Part shown: positions 3,943 to 18,582 of the stretch, one piece after another
Numbering within the stretch: position 1 is the stretch's first letter
How the letters are laid out: every line of letters starts with the position of its first letter
IMG/VR virus record: IMGVR_UViG_3300046683_000019
Span: 1-20,999 of that record
Origin: a virus
DNA length: 20,999 nucleotides
Strand: one strand, 5' to 3'
Translations under genes and position numbers: made by a program
Notes under the pieces: model-generated
Database searches by the model: none
Told to the model about the DNA's origin: nothing
Seen by the model: the letters and a program-made list of their open reading frames with translations, nothing else

Positions 3943-4589
3943 CGCAAACGCCGGCGTTGATCGTGCGCGACGCGATTTACGATCGCGTCAAGGCGATGCC
4001 GTTCTTTGGCGGCTTTACCTTTGCCAAAAACAAGATGATGCGAATACAAACGCAAGACCTACCCTATTGCGGCGTCTATCTGATTAACGAGCTCCTCGTC
4101 CCCGAGGGCGATTCAAACGCCGGCGATATCCGCTTGCGCGATAGCGCGCGCTACGGCTTTTCGGTGATCGTGCTCGACAACGAAAACGAGGGCGGCGAGG
4201 AAACGCTCGACCAGGCTTTCGCCGAGATTACCAACGGCCTGTTATGCGATACGACGTTGACCGGCTTTAATCACAAGCTCTTGCAAGGGATCACGCGCGG
4301 CGAGCGTACGCACCTCTATGGCTCGGTCGCGCTCGACAACGAGACGCCGATCCTCGAATTGCAATTCGACATGACCGCCGACCTCGGCACCGCGATATTC
4401 AAGCCGACCATAACCGACGACCTTATCACGCTGCATATCGACGCGCGGCCGATCCAGAATCCCGACGCGCCGATCGTCGAAATGGAATGGAATATGCAAA
4501 CCGGGGAAATCAATACAACCAAGCGAGGACGCAATGGCAAAAATAAGAGTCACGCCAAACCGCGACGATCTCCCGCCGCATCCGATTGA
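3939..4589 (+). CDS. Tail-terminator-like phage protein
   Basis: The 216-residue protein begins with a helix (ALIVRDAIYDRVKAM). A mixed alpha/beta core follows, with LPYCGVYLINELLVPEGD near residues 45-62, then a strand ARYGFSVIVLDNEN and a strand PILELQFDM. Proteins that cap the tube and join tail to head in Mu-like and lambda-like phages have this size and order of elements. They are encoded just before the DUF2635 and sheath genes, as here. A length-measuring or capping role is inferred from position and general fold; I see no diagnostic motif. The C-terminus is Lys/Arg-rich and overlaps the next gene by 56 nt in another frame, a longer overlap than elsewhere in this operon. The start overlaps the previous stop as ATGA. 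Confidence 0.6.
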   Translation: MTQTPALIVRDAIYDRVKAMPFFGGFTFAKNKMMRIQTQDLPYCGVYLINELLVPEGDSNAGDIRLRDSARYGFSVIVLDNENEGGEETLDQAFAEITNGLLCDTTLTGFNHKLLQGITRGERTHLYGSVALDNETPILELQFDMTADLGTAIFKPTITDDLITLHIDARPIQNPDAPIVEMEWNMQTGEINTTKRGRNGKNKSHAKPRRSPAASD

Positions 4590-4755
4590 CGGCAAATTGC
4601 CGCCCGAGGGCGGCGAGTGGACCGCCGATCAATATACGTTCCGGTTGATCCGCGACGGCGACATTACCGAGGTGCCGCCCGAGGGCAGCGGCGACCCGCA
4701 ACGTCGAGCACCGCCGCCGGCCGATCACGGCGACGATCCAAAACGGAAAAAATGA
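4534..4755 (+). CDS. DUF2635 family protein (Mu gp38-like)
   Basis: This is a 73-residue protein. The segment DGKLPPEGGEW near residues 19-29, followed by FRLIRDGDITEVPPEG near 36-51, matches the usual DUF2635 pattern: a G-x-x-LP-x-x-G-x-x-V segment and then a R-L-x-D-G-D-V-x-E-V segment. DUF2635 genes lie directly before the tail sheath gene in Mu-like phages. Here the homing endonuclease has come between the two. The last ~20 residues are Pro/Asp/Lys-rich and probably disordered. The function of the family is not established; a role in sheath or tail assembly is inferred only from synteny. The start lies inside the 3' end of the tail-terminator-like gene, with AGCGAGGA about 8 nt upstream as a plausible ribosome site. 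Confidence 0.75.
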   Translation: MAKIRVTPNRDDLPPHPIDGKLPPEGGEWTADQYTFRLIRDGDITEVPPEGSGDPQRRAPPPADHGDDPKRKK

Positions 4756-5426
4756 CGACCGACTACGTCGTCTATTGGTTGTTTGATGAAACATGCGTAA
4801 CGCCCGAACACGACGGCTATGTCGGGGTAACTCAAGACATTAAACGGCGAACGGGCCAGCACCGTCGGCGCGGCGGGTTTCCGCCGGGCTTTGAGGTAAG
4901 GGTTCTAAATCAAGGGACGCTCGCCGAGTGTCGCGCCGTCGAGTGGCGGTTACGGCCGGCGTCGTTCATTGGTTGGAATTTGGCGGTCGGCGGAAAGCCG
5001 TCGGTTAATCATACCGAGGCGGTGCGCGCGAAAATAAGGGCGGCGAGGCGTCGGCAAACAATATCTGACGAAACGCGCGAAAAACTGCGCGCCGCATCAC
5101 GCGGTCGGACAAATAAAGGCCGGCTCGGTCAAAAGAAATCGCCGGAAGAAATCGCAAAGATTGCAGCGGCGAACATTGGTCGAAAAGCATCGGAAACAAC
5201 GCGCGTAAAACAGGCCGAAAAAAAGCGGGGCAACAAACATCGGCTCGGCAAGTATCACTCAGAAACGACGCGCGAAATAATTCGGTTCAAGAAAACCGGC
5301 GTTGCGGTTCACAGCGAACAGCACAAACAAATACTCCGCGATCGTTGGATTGGTAACTCACTCACTAAAGGTCAACCGTGGTCCGCGGCGAGGCGTCTCG
5401 CGTGGCTATCAACTAAGGAGATATGA
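4752..5426 (+). CDS. GIY-YIG homing endonuclease with NUMOD3-like repeats (free-standing)
   Basis: Predicted to be a site-specific DNA nuclease that copies its own gene into homologous phages lacking it. The 224 residues carry the GIY-YIG signature in order: Tyr5/Tyr8 (YVVYWLFD), Y23-V24-G25 (GYVGVT), Arg32/Arg33 with His37, the metal-binding Glu64 (AVEWRL) and Asn76 (GWNLAVGG). From residue 103 on there are five NUMOD3-like DNA-binding segments with the S-x-E-T pattern, at Ser105, Ser130, Ser147, Ser170 and Ser188. The region is very rich in Lys/Arg and lower in GC than its neighbours (about half GC in 5221-5280, counted by eye). I chose the ATG at 4752 because the nuclease domain begins there and it overlaps the previous stop as ATGA. 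An upstream in-frame ATG at 4617 would add 45 residues that only translate the DUF2635 gene in another frame. All active-site residues look intact. Confidence 0.9.
   Translation: MTTDYVVYWLFDETCVTPEHDGYVGVTQDIKRRTGQHRRRGGFPPGFEVRVLNQGTLAECRAVEWRLRPASFIGWNLAVGGKPSVNHTEAVRAKIRAARRRQTISDETREKLRAASRGRTNKGRLGQKKSPEEIAKIAAANIGRKASETTRVKQAEKKRGNKHRLGKYHSETTREIIRFKKTGVAVHSEQHKQILRDRWIGNSLTKGQPWSAARRLAWLSTKEI
5415..5420 (+). promoter_or_regulatory. Strong ribosome binding site of the tail sheath gene
   Basis: AAGGAG at 5415-5420 lies 9 nt before the sheath ATG at 5430. This sequence forms part of the last codons of the homing endonuclease gene, so the element kept or carried a near-perfect ribosome site for the high-copy sheath protein. 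Confidence 0.8.
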
Positions 5427-5429
5427 ACC

Positions 5430-6947
5430 ATGCCGATTTCTTTTTCGTCGATTCCCTCGGGGTGGAAGCTTCCGCTCGTATATATCGAGGTCGATCCCTC
5501 GCAAGCCGGCACGCCAACCTCACAAAAATATGCGTTGCTCGTCGATTACAAGCTCGCCGCCGGCGTTGCGCCGGTCGACGTCCCGATCGCGTGCGGCTCG
5601 GTTGCCGACGCGATCAATCTCGCCGGCCAGGGCTCGCCGCTCGCGCGCATGTACCAGGAATTTTTCTTGCTCAACAAGTCGACGCCCGTCTTGTTATTGC
5701 CGATCGCGCAAGCCGGCGCCGGCGTTGCGGCAACCGGCACGATTACGGTCGCGACACCGGCGACGCAAGCCGGGGAGCTCGCGCTTTATATCGCCGGCCA
5801 AAAGGTATCGGTCGGCGTCGCAACCACCGACGTCGTCGCCACGGTCGGGACCAACATCGCGGCGGCCATTATGGCGATGCCCGACTTGCCGGTCACCGCG
5901 GCGGCCGCGGGTGCGGTCGTTACCTTGACGTCGAAATGGAAAGGAATAAGCGCCAACGATATCGCGTTTGACTACAACGTGCTCGGCCCGAACGGCGGCG
6001 AAATGTTCCCGATCGGCCTCACCGTCACGCCGGCAACCGGCGGCAACCTTACCAGCGGCGTCGGCGTCCCGACCTGGACGACCGCGATCGCCAACCTCGG
6101 CGACGAGCCGTACGAATATGTCGGCCTCGGTTTCAACGATAGCGGCACCTTGCTCGCCTGGGAAACCGAATACGGCTTTAGCGACTCGGGTCGTTGGGGT
6201 TGGTTGCGCGAGGTTTATGGTCATGTGATCTCGGCCAAGCGCGACACCTATGCCAACCTTTTTAGCTACGGCCCGACCAACAATAGCGGCGTCGTTTCGC
6301 TCCTCGCGATCGAGCCGGATTCGCCGTCGCCGCTCTATGAATGGATCGGTGCCTATTGCGCGCGCGCGGCCGGGGCCTTGTCAATCGACCCGGCGCGGCC
6401 GTTGCAAACCTTGACGCTCGACGGGATCACGCCGGCGCCGAAACATTTGCGCTTTAACAAGACGCAATTGAACGCGCTCGCAAACGTCGGCCTCGCCGTG
6501 CAAATGGTCAACGCCGGCGAGATCGCCGCGCTCGCGCGTGAGCAAACGACCTATCAAAAGAACACACTCGGCCAAGCCGACAATGCCTACGAGCTCATGA
6601 CGACGCTCGCGACCTTGGCCGAGCTTTTCCGCCGTATGCGGCAAAGCATCACAAACAAATATCCGCGCGTGAAACTTGCCGACAACGGGACTCGATTTGG
6701 TCCCGGCCAGGCGATCGTTACGCCGAACATTCTCAAAGGCGAATTGATCTCGGAATATCGCCAATGCGAATACGACGGCCTTGTCGAAAACGGCCAAGCG
6801 TTCAAGGCGGCGTTGATCGTCGAGCGCGACGACGTCGATCCCAACCGAGTCAATGTTCTTTGGCCGGGAGACGTTATCAACCAACTTCGAATGTTCGCCG
6901 TCCTCGCGCAATTCCGCTTGCAATTCCCGCTCGCGCTCGCGGCCTAA
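5430..6947 (+). CDS. L: Contractile tail sheath protein, Mu gpL-like
   Basis: This is the polymerising sheath protein that surrounds the tail tube and contracts to drive it through the envelope. Its length of 505 residues matches Mu-type sheaths. Characteristic stretches lie in the C-terminal half: PARPLQTLTLDGI around residue 320, then TTYQKNTLGQADNAY near 376-390. KLADNGTRFGPGQAIVTP follows at 415-432, and DPNRVNVLWPGDVINQLR begins at 470. These match the conserved core that forms the inter-subunit mesh in Mu-like sheaths. The central section (residues ~95-190, Ala/Thr/Val-rich) corresponds to the variable outer domain. Translation is favoured by the strong ribosome site directly upstream, as expected for one of the most abundant virion proteins. 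It is followed by the tube gene after 25 nt. Confidence 0.93.
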   Translation: MPISFSSIPSGWKLPLVYIEVDPSQAGTPTSQKYALLVDYKLAAGVAPVDVPIACGSVADAINLAGQGSPLARMYQEFFLLNKSTPVLLLPIAQAGAGVAATGTITVATPATQAGELALYIAGQKVSVGVATTDVVATVGTNIAAAIMAMPDLPVTAAAAGAVVTLTSKWKGISANDIAFDYNVLGPNGGEMFPIGLTVTPATGGNLTSGVGVPTWTTAIANLGDEPYEYVGLGFNDSGTLLAWETEYGFSDSGRWGWLREVYGHVISAKRDTYANLFSYGPTNNSGVVSLLAIEPDSPSPLYEWIGAYCARAAGALSIDPARPLQTLTLDGITPAPKHLRFNKTQLNALANVGLAVQMVNAGEIAALAREQTTYQKNTLGQADNAYELMTTLATLAELFRRMRQSITNKYPRVKLADNGTRFGPGQAIVTPNILKGELISEYRQCEYDGLVENGQAFKAALIVERDDVDPNRVNVLWPGDVINQLRMFAVLAQFRLQFPLALAA

Positions 6948-7728: not shown

Positions 7729-7850
7729 TCGGCGATTGCATCGGCCTGGCGCTCAATTTCCATTGTAGTCCGCTTGCTTTCGCCGATCTCCCCATGTCGC
7801 AAATACACGATCTCATTCGCGAATTGATCGCGCTCAAGGACAAGCAATAA
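7357..7850 (+). CDS. Tail assembly chaperone, -1 frameshift extended form
   Basis: If ribosomes slip back one base at T TTT TTC (7698-7704), the zero-frame residues 1-116 are joined to 48 residues read in the -1 frame, ending at TAA 7848-7850, for 164 residues in total. The added part contains LIGDCIGLALNFHCSPLAF and then SQIHDLIRELIALK, an aromatic/Pro strand and closing helix like the extension of other long-tailed phage chaperones. The -1 frame stop overlaps the ATG of the tape-measure gene (TAATG), so the extension fills the whole gap. A dual-product chaperone just before the tape measure is an established feature of long-tailed phages. The event itself is inferred from sequence. Confidence 0.82.
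7698..7704 (+). promoter_or_regulatory. Programmed -1 frameshift slippery heptamer
   Basis: TTTTTTC is positioned exactly as X XXY YYZ in the chaperone frame (last T of CCT, then TTT, then TTC). The zero frame ends 24 nt later (TGA 7726-7728), whereas the -1 frame stays open to 7850. I see only weak short stems just downstream, so a stimulatory structure is unproven. Confidence 0.8.
7836..7840 (+). promoter_or_regulatory. Ribosome binding site of tape-measure gene 1
   Basis: AAGGA at 7836-7840 lies 9 nt before the ATG at 7850, inside the frameshift extension. It supports the choice of 7850 as the true start. Confidence 0.65.
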
Positions 7851-9784
7851 TGGCGAACGAGCAAGACGAGGTCGTCAAGATCGTCGTCGAGGTCGTCGAC
7901 AAGTTTACCAAGCCGCTTGAGGACATGCGAAAGCACCTCGCCGGCGTCGGCGACAAAGGTCCCGACGCCGAAAAGATTACAAAACATTTCGACAACTTGC
8001 GGGTCGCGGCGCGCAATGTCGGGAGCGCGTTGAGCGTCACGTTGTTGCCGGCCTTGCGCTCGCTCGGCCTCGGCTTTGCCACGATCGCAACGGCGGTGTT
8101 TGGCGCGGTGACCGCGCTCAAGGGCTTTGCCGGCAACCTCGATACCTTGAGCCGGCTCTCGCGCGAGACGGGCCTCACGATCGACAACATGCGCGAGCTT
8201 GAGGCCGTCGGTCGCCGCGTCGGCGCCACCACCGCGGAAATGCGCGAGGGTTGGCGCAATTTCGCCGCCGAGATGCACAAGATTCGCGCGCACGTTCAAA
8301 GCGAGACGTTAACCGGCTTGCGCGCGGTCGGCCTCAACGAATACGCCGACCGATTGCGCCAGGCCAAGACGACGGCCGAGGCGGAAGCTCTTATGTTTCA
8401 AGAGCTCGACAAAATCCGCGATCCCGACGAGCGCCGCCGTTTCCTGCAATTACATTTTTTGCCGCCGGAATTTGCCGACGCCACGCGCGCCGAACGCGAG
8501 CGCCTTATTGCCGAATATCGCAAGCAAGTCGGACCCGCCAACAAGGCCGCGGTCGACGCCTCGAAAAAGTTTATTGATTCGCTCGACGGCGTAAGCAACG
8601 CCTGGGAAGCGATGACAAAGCAAATGGCGCGCGACGGCACGCTCGAAAGCGCCGTCACCGGGCTCCAGGGCGCCGTTAACGCGGTCGACAAAATTAACGA
8701 CGCGATCGCCGGCATCATGGGACCGGGATCGCTCGGCGACAAAGTTTTCGGACCCAAATCGGAAACCTGGCACGCGCCCAAATCGCCAGGCCGGCCGCTC
8801 ACGATTTGGGAGCAACTCTTTGGCATGGGTTTCCCTACCGTCGATCCCGAGCATCCGGCGGCGAGCCCACAAAGCGACGAAAAAACCAAGGACACGATTA
8901 AGCAAGGCACGAGCGCCGGCGTGGTCGAGGGCCTCAAGAAAATGGCGCTCGATACCGGCGGCGGCGACGGCGCCTTTGGCGGCGCGTCATTGATCCGCGC
9001 CTCGCTCGGCGGCGGCGGCGGCCGCGGCGGACCAGGCGGCGGCAACGAAAGCGAGCCGGCGCCAGGCGGGCGCGCCAACATACCGGGCAACCGGCGCGCG
9101 GTTGCCGGGGCCGTCGTCGACGAGCTCCGCAAGGCCGGGCTATCCGACGAGGCGATCGCCGGCATCCTGGCGAATATCGGATCGGAAAGCTCTTTCGATC
9201 CGAGCTTGCGGCATCCCGACCAACCGGCTTACGGCGGCGAAGCACATTACGCGCATGGCCTTTATCAAGAGGGCGGCGCCGAGTGGAATAATTACGCGCG
9301 TTGGCTCCGCGAAAATCATCCCGGCGAGTCGTGGCAAGACCCGCGCTTGCAAACGCAATTCCTGATTCATCGGATGAAAACCGGCTATCCGAAACTTTGG
9401 GAAAAACTCAAGCACTCGGGCCGCACCGGCGCCGCGATCGCGTTCTTGCGCGAATACCTAAAACCCGCGCAACGGCATCAAGACGAGCGATCGCGCCAGT
9501 ATCAAAAGGGTTTGCCTGGCGTCGAGGATTATACCGGGACGCCGCCGACGGCGGGCGCCAAGCCGCAAAGCGAGCCGGCACCAACGCCGCCGCCGGCGCC
9601 GGTCCCGCGCGAGCGATTGCGCGAAGCCTCGTTAAGCGCGGCGCCGCGCACCGAGGGCGCGGCCTCGCTCCGCGTCTCGCTCAACGGTTTCCCGCGCGGC
9701 ACGCGCACGAGCACCGAGGCGAGCGGCGTATTCGGCGACGTCGAAACGCACCGCGGCAACATGCTCGCGACCGAGAGGGCTTAA
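7850..9784 (+). CDS. Tape-measure protein 1 with C-terminal tail-lysozyme domain
   Basis: This 644-residue protein should set tail length and travel down the tube into the host. The N-terminal ~300 residues are helical and charged, with a hydrophobic stretch at about 61-95 (LSVTLLPALRSLGLGFATIA and onward), typical of tape measures and possibly membrane-active on ejection. A linker follows with GVVEGLKKMALD (from 357) and IRASLGG (from 382) and long Gly runs. Residues ~409-560 form a phage tail lysozyme (Phage_lysozyme2-like) domain: AIAGILANIGSESSFDP with putative catalytic Glu446, then AHGLYQEGG and a WENLKH-like end. A Pro/Ala linker and a conserved tail (GVFGDVETHRGN) complete it. It is joined directly to a second, paralogous tape-measure gene. 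The lysozyme domain probably cuts peptidoglycan locally during DNA entry. Confidence 0.88.
   Translation: MANEQDEVVKIVVEVVDKFTKPLEDMRKHLAGVGDKGPDAEKITKHFDNLRVAARNVGSALSVTLLPALRSLGLGFATIATAVFGAVTALKGFAGNLDTLSRLSRETGLTIDNMRELEAVGRRVGATTAEMREGWRNFAAEMHKIRAHVQSETLTGLRAVGLNEYADRLRQAKTTAEAEALMFQELDKIRDPDERRRFLQLHFLPPEFADATRAERERLIAEYRKQVGPANKAAVDASKKFIDSLDGVSNAWEAMTKQMARDGTLESAVTGLQGAVNAVDKINDAIAGIMGPGSLGDKVFGPKSETWHAPKSPGRPLTIWEQLFGMGFPTVDPEHPAASPQSDEKTKDTIKQGTSAGVVEGLKKMALDTGGGDGAFGGASLIRASLGGGGGRGGPGGGNESEPAPGGRANIPGNRRAVAGAVVDELRKAGLSDEAIAGILANIGSESSFDPSLRHPDQPAYGGEAHYAHGLYQEGGAEWNNYARWLRENHPGESWQDPRLQTQFLIHRMKTGYPKLWEKLKHSGRTGAAIAFLREYLKPAQRHQDERSRQYQKGLPGVEDYTGTPPTAGAKPQSEPAPTPPPAPVPRERLREASLSAAPRTEGAASLRVSLNGFPRGTRTSTEASGVFGDVETHRGNMLATERA
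8991..9006 (+). repeat. Direct repeat copy 1 of 3 (encodes IRASL linker motif)
   Basis: TGATCCGCGCCTCGCT occurs here and again at 10839-10854 and 11001-11016, in tape-measure genes 1 and 2. Each copy encodes I-R-A-S-L within a Gly-rich linker. Copies 1 and 3 stay identical for several bases beyond the shared 16. Confidence 0.85.
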
Positions 9785-11797
9785 ATGGCCGAGCAAGACG
9801 AGGCGATCAAGGTCGTTGTCGAGGTCGTCGACAAATTCTCAAAGCCGCTCAACGACCTCAAGAAAGAGCTCGACCGCATTAGTGACCGCGGCGGCGACGG
9901 CGCCTCGAAAGTTAAAAAGCATTTTGACGGCTTGCGCGAGGCGGCGACCAACGTCGGCAACGCGCTCAACGCGACGGTCGTCCCGGCCTTGCGCGCGGTT
10001 GGGATCGGCTTTGGCGGCCTAGCCGCGACGATCGCAACCGCGGTGACCGCGCTCAAGGGCTTTGCCGGCACGACCGAGGTGCTATCGCGCCTAAGCCGTG
10101 AAACCGGCATCTCGATCGACCGTATGCGCGAGCTTGAGGCGGTCGGCCGGCGGCTCGGCATATCGGCCGGCGAAATGCGCTCGGGCTTTCGCGACTTTGC
10201 CGCGTCAATGCACCAAACGCGACTCGGCATCGGCGACGCCGCAAAAGACTTACGGATGCACGGCCAGGGAGAATTTGCCGAGCAATTGCGCCGTACCAAG
10301 ACCAACGCCGAGGCGCTTGAGCTTATTTTCAAAAAGCTCGACACAATACGCGATCCGCAAAATCGGCGCGATTTCCTCAAGGGCCAGCATTTGCCGCCGG
10401 GCCTGGCCGACGCCAACCGCAAGGAACGCGAAAAGCTTATCAAGGAGTGGCGCGATAGCGTCGGCGCCACGACCAAAGAGGACGTTGACGCCGCCGACCG
10501 TTTTGAGCACTCGCTTTGGCGCATGGGCAACGCCTTTGAGTCGCTCACGCAAAAAATGACGACCGAGGGCTCGCTCGACACCTTAACCAAATCGTTGACC
10601 AGTATTTCCAACCTGGTCCCCGAGCTCATCAAGGGCATTAATCAATTCAACGAGTTCTACGGCAAATTCCAAAAGTTTATAACGCCGCCGGAATTGCCGA
10701 CGAAATCCTGGGAGGAATGGTGGGAGAATTTCAAGCAACGATTTGGCGGCGGCGGCAATAGCGCGCCGGCGGCGCCAGGCGCGCCGGCGAGCCCGCAAAA
10801 AATGTCCTACGGCGGCGGCACGTTCGGCGGCGCGCAAGTGATCCGCGCCTCGCTGATCGGCGGCGGCGACGAGGAAAAAGCTAAAGAGATAATTGCCGAG
10901 GGCGTGGTCGAGGGCCTCAAAAAATGGGCGCTCGACCAGGGCGCCGAGGGGCCGGGCGCGCATGGCGGCCAGGGCGGCGATGGCGGCGGCGGTGCGCCGG
11001 TGATCCGCGCCTCGCTCGGCGGGAGCCCGTCGAGCCGCGGCGGCAATACGGGCGGCGGTGATGGCGGCGGCGGCCCGCAATCGGCCGGCGGCGGCTCGGC
11101 GCCGGATCAATCCGATCGGCCCTATAAGATCGGCGGCAAGGTTACCGTCGGCGGGCAAGAGTTTACATGGGGCTCGGGCGGCGCCAAGCGCGGCTCGCTT
11201 CCTTACGGCGATTTTCCGGTCAATATCGGCGACCCGCAAATGGGGCCTTGGGGTCGCACGCATGGCGCGATCGCAACCATCGGCGGCGCCGGCGGCGTGA
11301 TCGACGACCCGAAATATCCAGGGCGCCCGCGCGCCGGTATTGAGATTCATCCCGGTTCGGGCGCCACGCTCGACCGGCTTTATTCGGAAGGATGCTTCGC
11401 GGTCCCGCGCCAACAATGGCCGGCGTTCAAGCGCGCACTATTAGAGCAAGCGAAAAACGGCCCGCTCATGCTCCATGTTGGCCGCAACGGGCGGGCCGAG
11501 ATTTTATCGCGGCAAGATTGGCGCGCCAGGTACGGCGGCGGCGCCACGGCCGGCGTCCCGTTACCGCGCGCGCGACCCGACGCGCCGCGCCCGCCGGCGG
11601 TGCCGCGCGATCGCATGATGGACGCCTCGGCACGGCAAAGCCAAGTTGCCAAGATCGAGGGCGCGGCATCCGTCCGCATTGATCTCGCCGGCTATGGCAA
11701 TGCGCCGAAGCATAATTCCTCGCCGACGGCCGGCGTCTTTTCCGAGGTGCAATTGCACCGCGGCAATACCATCCCTTACGCCAACGAAAGCGCATAA
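9785..11797 (+). CDS. Tape-measure protein 2 with C-terminal L,D-transpeptidase/peptidase-like domain
   Basis: The 670-residue protein is a clear paralogue of the preceding one. Its first residues (AEQDEAIKVVVEVVDKFSKP) nearly repeat those of protein 1 (NEQDEVVKIVVEVVDKFTKP), and SRLSRETG and MRELEAVGRR are shared. Similarity runs to about residue 290, resumes in the linker (GVVEGLKKWALD; IRASL at 353 and 407) and again at the C-terminus (GVFSEVQLHRGN). The lysozyme domain is replaced by a different domain at about 450-600. This contains HGAIATIGG, then Gly-Ile-Glu-Ile-His522, eleven residues, and Ser534-Glu-Gly-Cys537. The H-x11-S-E-G-C arrangement resembles the H...[S/T]-x-G-C active site of YkuD L,D-transpeptidases and of related toxins such as Tlde1 (DUF2778). 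That points to a peptidoglycan-acting enzyme, but the assignment is only motif-level. ATG 9785 follows the previous TAA directly. Confidence 0.85.
   Translation: MAEQDEAIKVVVEVVDKFSKPLNDLKKELDRISDRGGDGASKVKKHFDGLREAATNVGNALNATVVPALRAVGIGFGGLAATIATAVTALKGFAGTTEVLSRLSRETGISIDRMRELEAVGRRLGISAGEMRSGFRDFAASMHQTRLGIGDAAKDLRMHGQGEFAEQLRRTKTNAEALELIFKKLDTIRDPQNRRDFLKGQHLPPGLADANRKEREKLIKEWRDSVGATTKEDVDAADRFEHSLWRMGNAFESLTQKMTTEGSLDTLTKSLTSISNLVPELIKGINQFNEFYGKFQKFITPPELPTKSWEEWWENFKQRFGGGGNSAPAAPGAPASPQKMSYGGGTFGGAQVIRASLIGGGDEEKAKEIIAEGVVEGLKKWALDQGAEGPGAHGGQGGDGGGGAPVIRASLGGSPSSRGGNTGGGDGGGGPQSAGGGSAPDQSDRPYKIGGKVTVGGQEFTWGSGGAKRGSLPYGDFPVNIGDPQMGPWGRTHGAIATIGGAGGVIDDPKYPGRPRAGIEIHPGSGATLDRLYSEGCFAVPRQQWPAFKRALLEQAKNGPLMLHVGRNGRAEILSRQDWRARYGGGATAGVPLPRARPDAPRPPAVPRDRMMDASARQSQVAKIEGAASVRIDLAGYGNAPKHNSSPTAGVFSEVQLHRGNTIPYANESA
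10839..10854 (+). repeat. Direct repeat copy 2 of 3 (IRASL linker motif)
   Basis: Identical 16 nt to the copies at 8991-9006 and 11001-11016. It encodes residues from Ile353 of tape-measure protein 2, in the Gly-rich linker. Confidence 0.85.
11001..11016 (+). repeat. Direct repeat copy 3 of 3 (IRASL linker motif)
   Basis: Identical 16 nt to the copies at 8991-9006 and 10839-10854. It encodes residues from Ile407 of tape-measure protein 2. The presence of two copies here suggests a short internal duplication of the linker. Confidence 0.85.
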
Positions 11798-17298: not shown

Positions 17299-18582
17299 AT
17301 GAAATACAACCAACCCTACGGCGCGCCGGGCGCAAACGACCCGTACATTAACGGCAACCCGTCGACCGGGACTATGGGCTCGATCCCGCCCGCCGCCTCG
17401 ATTGAATATCCGCAACGGGAAATCGTCGAGGTTATTGCGGCGGGCGGCCTGACGCCGGATAACGCCGACCTGACGCAATTAGCGAAAGCCATTCAAGGCG
17501 GCAAAATCATTTTCGGTGGCACCTCGGCCAATGCCGGTAACGCGTTCTCGGCCTCGGTATCGCCCGTTCCAAATGCGCTCACCGTTGGAATGTGTGTCGT
17601 CGTTAAAATGAATGCCGCGCCGACCGGCCCGGCGACCTTTGCGCTCAATACGTTCAGCTTTGCCAACGTCATTCGCCGAGGCGGCGCGGCAATTGGCAAA
17701 GACGAATGGGCGGCTAATGATTTCGTTGCGTTTTGGTGGACCGGTTCGCAATGGCAGACCGGTGCCGGGGCCAGTCCGCAATCGGGCGGCTTGATCCTAG
17801 CGTTAATGAGCCTTGATCTTTATGTCGCGACAAGTGGCAACGACACGACCGGAGATGGTACGGCCAGCAAACCGTTTCTCACCATTCAGAAGGCTTATAA
17901 TTTCGCGCAACAAACATACAATTTGAACGGGCACACCCTTACAATTCATGTTGCTGACGGCACTTATCTAGGATCGCTTCAAGCTGCTGGTCCCATCACC
18001 GGCACGACAGGACCCGGCGGCGTGCAGATTATCGGCAACACGACAACGCCAGCCAATTGCTACGTTATCACGAGCGGCAATGTTCCGTGTTTTTACGGCT
18101 CGGGTGGCGCACAATTTTATGTTGACGGCTTCCGTATTGGCATCGGCGGGGCGACGACCATCATTGGTTGCATTTGGGCAACTGGTAATGGCACAGCGAT
18201 ATCAGTCGGTACACACATTCATTATGCCGGTGCGGTGAATAGTGCCAACATCAAAAGCGATGTAAGCGGCACCGTCATCATGCGCGGTTGCGTGATCGAA
18301 AACGCGTCATTTGGTTATCATTTGTATGCTAGCGCGGGACAAATCTATAGCGCGGGAGTGTCCGACACCATCATTTGTCAGGGTACTCCGGCCTTTGGTG
18401 GCGCGTGCGCCAGCGTGACCTATGGCTATATCGGCACGCTATTGCTTAGCGTTTCCGGTTTTGCGGTCGGCAAAAAATACGAGGCGAATAATCTGGCTTG
18501 GCTCAACACCTATGGCAGCGGCGCAAACTATTTTCCCGGTGATAGCGCAGGAACGATAGGCACTTATGGTATCTATTCTTGA
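17299..18582 (+). CDS. Tail fibre/tailspike with a predicted parallel beta-helix
   Basis: A probable receptor-binding protein of 427 residues. Residues 1-70 (PYGAPGANDPYINGNPSTGT, then a helix with LTQLAKAIQGG) resemble baseplate-attaching N-termini of alphaproteobacterial phage fibres. Residues 70-160 form a small beta domain (FWWTGSQWQTG near its end). From about residue 174 (LYVATSGNDTTGDGTASKPF) the sequence looks like the start of pectate-lyase-type parallel beta-helices, and short Gly/Ile/Val-rich coils continue to about 385. The end (NTYGSGANYFPGDSAGT near 400-422) is a typical fibre tip cap. No acidic catalytic pair is obvious, so enzymatic cleavage of polysaccharide is not shown. GC is lower in the helix part (25 of 60 bases in 17881-17940, by eye). 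The ribosome site CGAGGA lies 6 nt upstream. Confidence 0.8.
   Translation: MKYNQPYGAPGANDPYINGNPSTGTMGSIPPAASIEYPQREIVEVIAAGGLTPDNADLTQLAKAIQGGKIIFGGTSANAGNAFSASVSPVPNALTVGMCVVVKMNAAPTGPATFALNTFSFANVIRRGGAAIGKDEWAANDFVAFWWTGSQWQTGAGASPQSGGLILALMSLDLYVATSGNDTTGDGTASKPFLTIQKAYNFAQQTYNLNGHTLTIHVADGTYLGSLQAAGPITGTTGPGGVQIIGNTTTPANCYVITSGNVPCFYGSGGAQFYVDGFRIGIGGATTIIGCIWATGNGTAISVGTHIHYAGAVNSANIKSDVSGTVIMRGCVIENASFGYHLYASAGQIYSAGVSDTIICQGTPAFGGACASVTYGYIGTLLLSVSGFAVGKKYEANNLAWLNTYGSGANYFPGDSAGTIGTYGIYS

Follow-up and report, generated by a model that had tools for sequence, protein, structure and literature searches.

The window, a virus record of 20,999 bases, carries what profile matches identify as the head-tail operon of a contractile-tailed phage, with genes for the portal, head-tail connectors, a DUF2635-like protein, sheath, tube, tail chaperone, tape-measure-like proteins and baseplate. 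Between the DUF2635-like gene and the sheath gene lies an intact, free-standing homing endonuclease gene of the GIY-YIG/NUMOD3 type (HEG; Table 1). The ORFs and profile matches confirm the coordinates, frame and junctions given in the original prediction. The HEG ATG at 4752 overlaps the TGA (4753-4755) of the 73-aa ORF at 4534-4755, so that both genes share an ATGA, and its own TGA stop occupies 5424-5426, shortly before the sheath ATG at 5430; the last HEG codons supply the ribosome-binding site of the sheath gene, TAAGGAGAT, as had been proposed. The lower GC content noted earlier is also real (55.4%, compared with 61.2% in the sheath gene), and the GC3 of 0.573 is the lowest among the 24 genes of the window. 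Second-lowest is the gene at 17299-18582 (0.593), which has no Pfam match and is possibly a recent acquisition. An intron or intein origin of the HEG was ruled out, as the Rfam scan of the window returned no family match and the gene lies between two intact ORFs. Further along, at 7850-11797, lie two paralogous tape-measure-like ORFs in tandem (44% over 423 columns, E 4e-89), with a tail lysozyme domain detected in the first ORF only.

Table 1. Features at and around the endonuclease gene of the window.
Feature	Position	Strand	Basis
DUF2635-like gene, 73 aa	4534..4755	+	phrog_208 (E 1e-5); Pfam DUF2635 (E 0.013), below cut-off
Free-standing GIY-YIG/NUMOD3 homing endonuclease gene (HEG), 224 aa	4752..5426	+	PHROG and Pfam matches, AlphaFold model, dN/dS
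ATGA start/stop overlap of HEG with DUF2635-like gene	4752..4755	+	Sequence; terminator-like hairpin of empty relatives absent here
GIY-YIG catalytic domain, residues 5-81	4764..4994	+	Conserved Y8, Y23, R33, H37, E64, N76
NUMOD3-type helical DNA-binding region, residues 87-223	5010..5420	+	Pfam NUMOD3; helices of the model; 1i3j profile match
Sheath ribosome-binding site TAAGGAGAT within HEG 3' end	5414..5422	+	Sequence
Tail sheath gene, 505 aa	5430..6947	+	phrog_165 (E 2e-149); Pfam Phage_sheath_1 and 1C
Sheath 5' end, putative co-conversion tract and likely target region	5430..5546	+	Excess of nearly all synonymous differences from empty relatives

The HEG protein matches PHROG 314, 'homing endonuclease' (E 3e-12). 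Pfam NUMOD3 (PF07460) exceeds its cut-off over two stretches (27 bits vs 20.4), and GIY-YIG (PF01541) scores below its own (16.8 bits vs 22.6, E 0.0084), which is a threshold of the model and not a defining property of the fold; the family member of contig L118 passes it with 24.1 bits. The GIY...YIG motif is present together with the Tyr, Arg, Glu and Asn that we take to be catalytic. The roles of such residues are also given in the available sections of PMC2988022. Y8, Y23, R33, H37, E64 and N76 are all invariant in 8 of 8 sequences; in an alignment of 32 sequences Y8, Y23 and N76 stay invariant and R33, H37 and E64 are each conserved in at least 90%. The AlphaFold model has a mean pLDDT of 81 (about 96 over most of the first 70 residues) and a pTM of 0.42. 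Foldseek against the PDB gave no significant match (best E 2.6, Slx1). When its candidates were reordered by VIA-align, the best was the catalytic domain of I-TevI, the td intron endonuclease of phage T4 (Z 7.9, 75 residues, rmsd 2.8), followed by UvrC GIY-YIG domains (Z 6.2) and then by Slx1 and a restriction enzyme. With Z below 8 and a Foldseek E of 2.6, the model lends modest support to a GIY-YIG fold.

Beyond the catalytic domain, the model contains seven helices of at least 11 residues, and among PDB entries the family profile hits the I-TevI DNA-binding domain (1i3j, E 0.0053). The five NUMOD3-like segments counted earlier are roughly right: five to six can be discerned by eye, but Pfam passes two, and the pattern S-x-E-x3-K matches four times (mean of 0.23 in shuffled sequences). 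The further claim that this DNA-reading region is unusually long did not hold, since its length is ordinary, the whole proteins of relatives measuring 142-267 aa. dN/dS is 0.19-0.30 in the three pairs among the window, L099 and L008 and 0.09-0.30 over five comparisons of related HEG pairs, which indicates that the protein is under selection now or was until recently. Judged by its sequence, the HEG is an intact, conserved gene under purifying selection. A different state is seen at L127:2067-2630, where an in-frame deletion of 24 nt has removed the catalytic Glu; a single base is the only other difference from the L116 allele in this region, the remaining ORF is kept, and the allele is apparently dead. 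Homing endonuclease genes go through a cycle of gain, decay and loss, in which dead alleles are expected.

The original prediction implied that relatives without the gene at this site would exist, and this is what we found. A scan with the sheath protein returned 63 contigs, of which 55 could be read at the junction (six had no sheath start and two had less than 150 nt upstream). A family member lies between DUF2635 and the sheath gene in 10 of them, representing five distinct endonuclease genes, and 45 have none; for the 16 contigs whose sheath is less than 74% identical, 'empty' means that no member of the HEG family was detected just upstream. The empty relatives include three with a 97% identical sheath (L017, L021 and L055), so that presence at this fixed site is polymorphic among near relatives. 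All 15 distinct empty junctions of the lineage with about 75% or more sheath identity carry a terminator-like element, a GC-rich hairpin with a T-run behind it, that overlaps the DUF2635 stop or lies immediately downstream of it (L055:3954-3982 and equivalents); an automatic rule detected 14 of them, and that of the L025 type was recognised by eye. The stem sequences vary between relatives yet stay complementary. Applied to the upstream regions of other genes, the rule found hairpins in 3 of 47 cases for tube, 2 of 52 for head-tail attachment and 0 of 99 for four further genes, and it detected none in the junctions of more distant relatives.

The hairpin itself is absent from the window, where it was lost at 4752, and from L008. 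In L033, L010 and L045 the endonuclease gene begins directly after the T-run and ends with a stop codon within sheath codons 5-6, having displaced the spacer and the former ribosome-binding site in it. The earlier view of an insertion that broke neither neighbour is therefore correct for both reading frames, but not for the hairpin, the spacer with its ribosome-binding site and the native first sheath codons, all of which were replaced. The event would be better described as a replacement than as a clean insertion, in which the cassette appears to take the place of a short spacer and of ~60-230 nt at the start of the sheath gene, the outcome expected from co-conversion during homing.

Comparison of occupied and empty relatives reveals such a footprint in natural sequences, and it is sharp in two pairs. 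The occupied L045 and the empty L044 show no mismatch in the 1,615 nt running from sheath nt 61 to nt 1,675, and all of their 12 differences fall within nt 1-60, where 11 codons are changed, all synonymously; upstream of the L045 HEG, only 4 mismatches to the empty L043 occur from DUF2635 to the end of the hairpin T-run. The sheath genes of L033 (occupied) and L052 (empty) differ at 28 positions in nt 1-90, at 9 more up to nt 231 and at 8 in the remaining 1,080, and upstream the two are near-identical up to the T-run except for one short indel region. Between the window and L055, 25 of the 33 differences in the first 300 sheath nt lie within nt 1-117, identity in successive 60-nt blocks being 80%, 78%, 98% and 98%. 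In a set of 5 occupied and 15 empty sequences, similarity in sheath nt 4-60 is lower than elsewhere in the gene for occupied-empty pairs (mean -0.087, 75 pairs) and slightly higher for empty-empty pairs (+0.032, 105 pairs). In a permutation over these 20 sequences the true labelling gave the lowest value of all 15,504, although the sequences are related and this is not a strict probability.

Such differences might be expected if the first sheath codons had merely re-adapted to translation initiation after the HEG changed their upstream context, with no conversion tract; the differences are nearly all synonymous and lie at the gene start, where mRNA structure matters, and the cassette brings a new ribosome-binding site. 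We regard this as highly improbable, because 12 changes in 60 nt and none in the next 1,615 nt would require very rapid and strictly local evolution, and because L010 and L045, whose HEGs are related, resemble each other more closely over the first 60 nt (0.87) than over nt 61-300 (0.78). An assembly chimera is likewise unlikely, as each of these alleles recurs, that of L045 in L112, that of L033 in L034 and that of the window in four further contigs. L112, which is occupied and comes from a second sample, has 2 mismatches to the L045 contig over 4,652 nt. The empty L044 comes from the same sample as L112, 3300046529, and both contigs end near the stretch of allele difference, which fits two co-existing alleles, as these would stop an assembler.

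Conversion from a carrier also has a probable direction, since the other empty members of the lineage share the sheath start of the empty allele, and the tract of the carriers thus looks like the incoming one. The target, which the original prediction placed in the flanking genes, would on this evidence lie on the sheath side, in the spacer and the first ~60 sheath nt. This location comes from relatives of the window enzyme, the HEGs of L033 (70% identical) and L045 (about 32%), because L055, the nearest empty relative of the window, is too diverged to give a sharp edge. If the cut lies in the replaced stretch, the target of the L045 enzyme would fall within the spacer and sheath nt 1-60; our best guess for the window enzyme is the same region, given that its differences from L055 concentrate in the first ~117 nt.

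Position-blind scans with endonuclease sequences only recovered 54 family genes on 53 contigs (window included, repeat-fetched contigs counted once, and 24 loci, L140-L163, and a further 14, L178-L191, left out as weak matches or matches mainly to the repeat part). Relative to a sheath gene, 25 lie upstream in the sense orientation, 19 upstream in the antisense orientation and 7 downstream in the sense orientation; the other 3 have no sheath gene in the fetched stretch. As many as 49 of the 54 are directly beside the sheath gene, meaning that no recognised gene intervenes, with gaps of up to 658 nt in which small unrecognised ORFs are possible; the endonuclease gene of L009 lies beyond the tube and chaperone genes and that of L121 is 2.4 kb from the sheath. 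At 90% identity there are 43 distinct genes, which a hand tally divides into 16 upstream sense, 17 upstream antisense, 7 downstream and 3 without a sheath. The exceptions without a sheath are the gene of L117, beside a ParB-like gene, that of L126, after a DUF2635-like gene with the sheath region missing, and that of L139, which lies in a baseplate-like region and is a GIY-YIG/NUMOD3 gene of a different type. The endonuclease genes of L119 and L123 adjoin sheath genes of another family (phrog_23).

In the HEG tree (36 rows, built without four near-identical rows and without the later loci L164-L199), genes group by position and orientation, with four changes for upstream sense, two for upstream antisense and two for downstream; none of 500 shuffles was as low. 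Ten additional contigs have an endonuclease closest to the antisense clade, and all 10 carry it at the same antisense site (7 and 3, from two scans). The first 24 and the last ~120 residues of the sheath are conserved blocks among 47 distinct sheaths, and these lie next to the two sides of insertion. The nearest isolate phages contain distant GIY-YIG genes only, and the three examined do not lie beside a gene annotated as sheath (in the terminase region of K1E, at the tail fibre genes of MEP301 and beside a RuvC gene in PA-SR01); further queries among isolates gave no close relative of the HEG. The sheath tie therefore looks like a property of this GIY-YIG/NUMOD3 clade, within which it is family-wide as far as sequence can tell. 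As a clue to the host, a scan of a genome collection gave one record with a related sheath (Bosea sp. BK604, 61%), too little to name a host.

Vertical inheritance from an ancestor that had the HEG, followed by many deletions and with the flanking differences as ordinary drift, would account for HEG clades that track site and orientation. It would also agree with the equal dS of the HEG and sheath genes between L010 and L045 (0.82 and 0.81), a value that fits long co-residence as well as transfer. However, L010 and the window have an 88% identical sheath and HEGs of different clades (about 34% identical), and L101-L104, with sheaths roughly 42-57% identical, carry HEGs of the window's clade. 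Endonuclease genes thus move between phages, since close phages hold different clades at the same junction and distant phages share one. The footprints of L045/L044 and L033/L052 in addition require recent recombination, and the remaining empty members of the lineage share the sheath start of the empty allele. We rejected vertical inheritance with losses as improbable on account of the mismatch between HEG clades and sheath similarity and of these footprints.

The HEG might instead move passively by ordinary recombination, its protein now serving mainly as a DNA-binding regulator or as an excluder of competing phages. Compatible with such a role are the profile match to the I-TevI DNA-binding domain, given that I-TevI is able to act as a transcriptional repressor (PMC10448857, available text), and the L127 allele, which kept its remaining ORF after losing the catalytic Glu. 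We consider it unlikely, as the catalytic residues are conserved in nearly all of the 32 aligned members, and a few fixed sites beside one gene, in both orientations, fit site-directed entry better.

We propose, with good but not complete confidence, that the HEG is a free-standing homing endonuclease of the I-TevI type, predicted to cut empty phages in the spacer and about the first 60 nt of the sheath gene, with repair templated by the carrier. The N-terminal GIY-YIG nuclease would be guided by the string of NUMOD3 helices, which would read a long DNA site. During mixed infection, the enzyme would cut the matching region of a phage without the HEG, and the cut empty allele would be resected and then repaired from the carrier, so that the HEG is copied in along with the sheath 5' end of the carrier. 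The incoming end would encode the same protein with synonymous differences, leaving the new carrier immune. As the HEG leaves the sheath gene unsplit, immunity has to arise either because the spacer or the hairpin is lost or through the synonymous changes, and we infer the latter. The cutting itself, its precise position and the role of homing in driving the exchange are likewise predictions; intronless homing, by analogy with the Seg enzymes of T4, would be the simplest account. A broader reading, which we advance tentatively and hold a little short of even confidence, is that the clade is specialised on the sheath gene. Its members would be cassettes of an HEG together with a synonymously recoded, cleavage-resistant copy of the first 20-80 sheath codons, or a counterpart at the other end, and would spread among unrelated sheath-bearing phages by cutting the conserved ends of the gene, with the line of the window also removing the terminator.

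Most of what is known about free-standing homing endonucleases comes from T4-type phages and a handful of model systems. Uncultured phages from metagenomes add near-identical pairs of carriers and non-carriers that display what one acquisition replaced, which narrows the likely target to less than 100 nt. If the sheath-bound clade is real, a structural gene of the contractile tail would be a recurrent landing site, and sheath 5' ends may be swapped among phages by endonucleases, beyond descent alone.

The enzyme class and homing are already known, and the available parts of PMC10448857 and PMC12724721 describe free-standing endonucleases next to essential phage genes, HEG islands and clades sorted by insertion site. 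I-TevI resembles the HEG in combining a GIY-YIG catalytic domain with a NUMOD3-type DNA-binding region, and has a linker zinc finger and a C-terminal helix-turn-helix (PMC10448857, available text), but it is intron-borne and the HEG is free-standing. The Seg endonucleases of T4, free-standing GIY-YIG enzymes for which 'intronless homing' is described, share with the HEG a location between conserved genes and co-conversion of flanking sequence; in the available text of PMC2988022 they are described in T4-type phages, with none placed at a sheath gene, and the likeness is by description only. The K1E gp40.5-like endonucleases of Vectrevirus are about 45% identical over 60 residues of the GIY-YIG domain; K1E gp40.5, unlike the HEG, is flanked by two parts of the large terminase gene, so it is not tied to a sheath gene. 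In HEG islands, nucleases bracket essential genes (PMC10448857, available text), and the HNH endonucleases of Skunavirus cluster by insertion site (PMC12724721, available text). Both recall the present family in that essential genes are bracketed and subfamilies follow insertion sites, but they involve other nuclease families (T5orf172, IPA-HNH and HNH), of which T5orf172 and IPA-HNH are reported in the accessible sections of PMC10448857 mainly near terminase, nucleotide reductase, capsid or polymerase genes. The endonuclease of LIMEstone1 is free-standing and next to contractile-tail genes, being listed with the tail tube gene ORF144, yet it is a single case of a '-like' group, apparently Hef-like and not GIY-YIG/NUMOD3, in the available portion of PMC3296691. 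In searches of an open-licence library we found neither a sheath-tied GIY-YIG/NUMOD3 clade nor natural footprints of this kind.

Several contigs show further arrangements around the sheath gene. It is bracketed by endonuclease genes on both sides in L013:2513-5789, by two GIY-YIG clades, and by a GIY-YIG gene and an HNH-type gene in L123:278-3318 (phrog_374) and L119:359-4654 (phrog_3339). At L126:2565-3403 the endonuclease gene runs into a baseplate-hub-like gene and the sheath, tube, chaperone and tape measure genes are missing, either through a large deletion or through misassembly. A small endonuclease VII/HNH-like ORF (phrog_2340, E 2e-6) lies between the sheath and tube genes at L009:1444-1713. 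The sheath gene of L104 contains an in-frame, repeat-like insertion of more than 200 residues around residue 155 (L104:5197-5897); an intron or intein was considered for it and dropped, because the insert is a single open frame of repeat-like sequence. The sheath matches of L169 show a comparable gap (L169:2659-3191).
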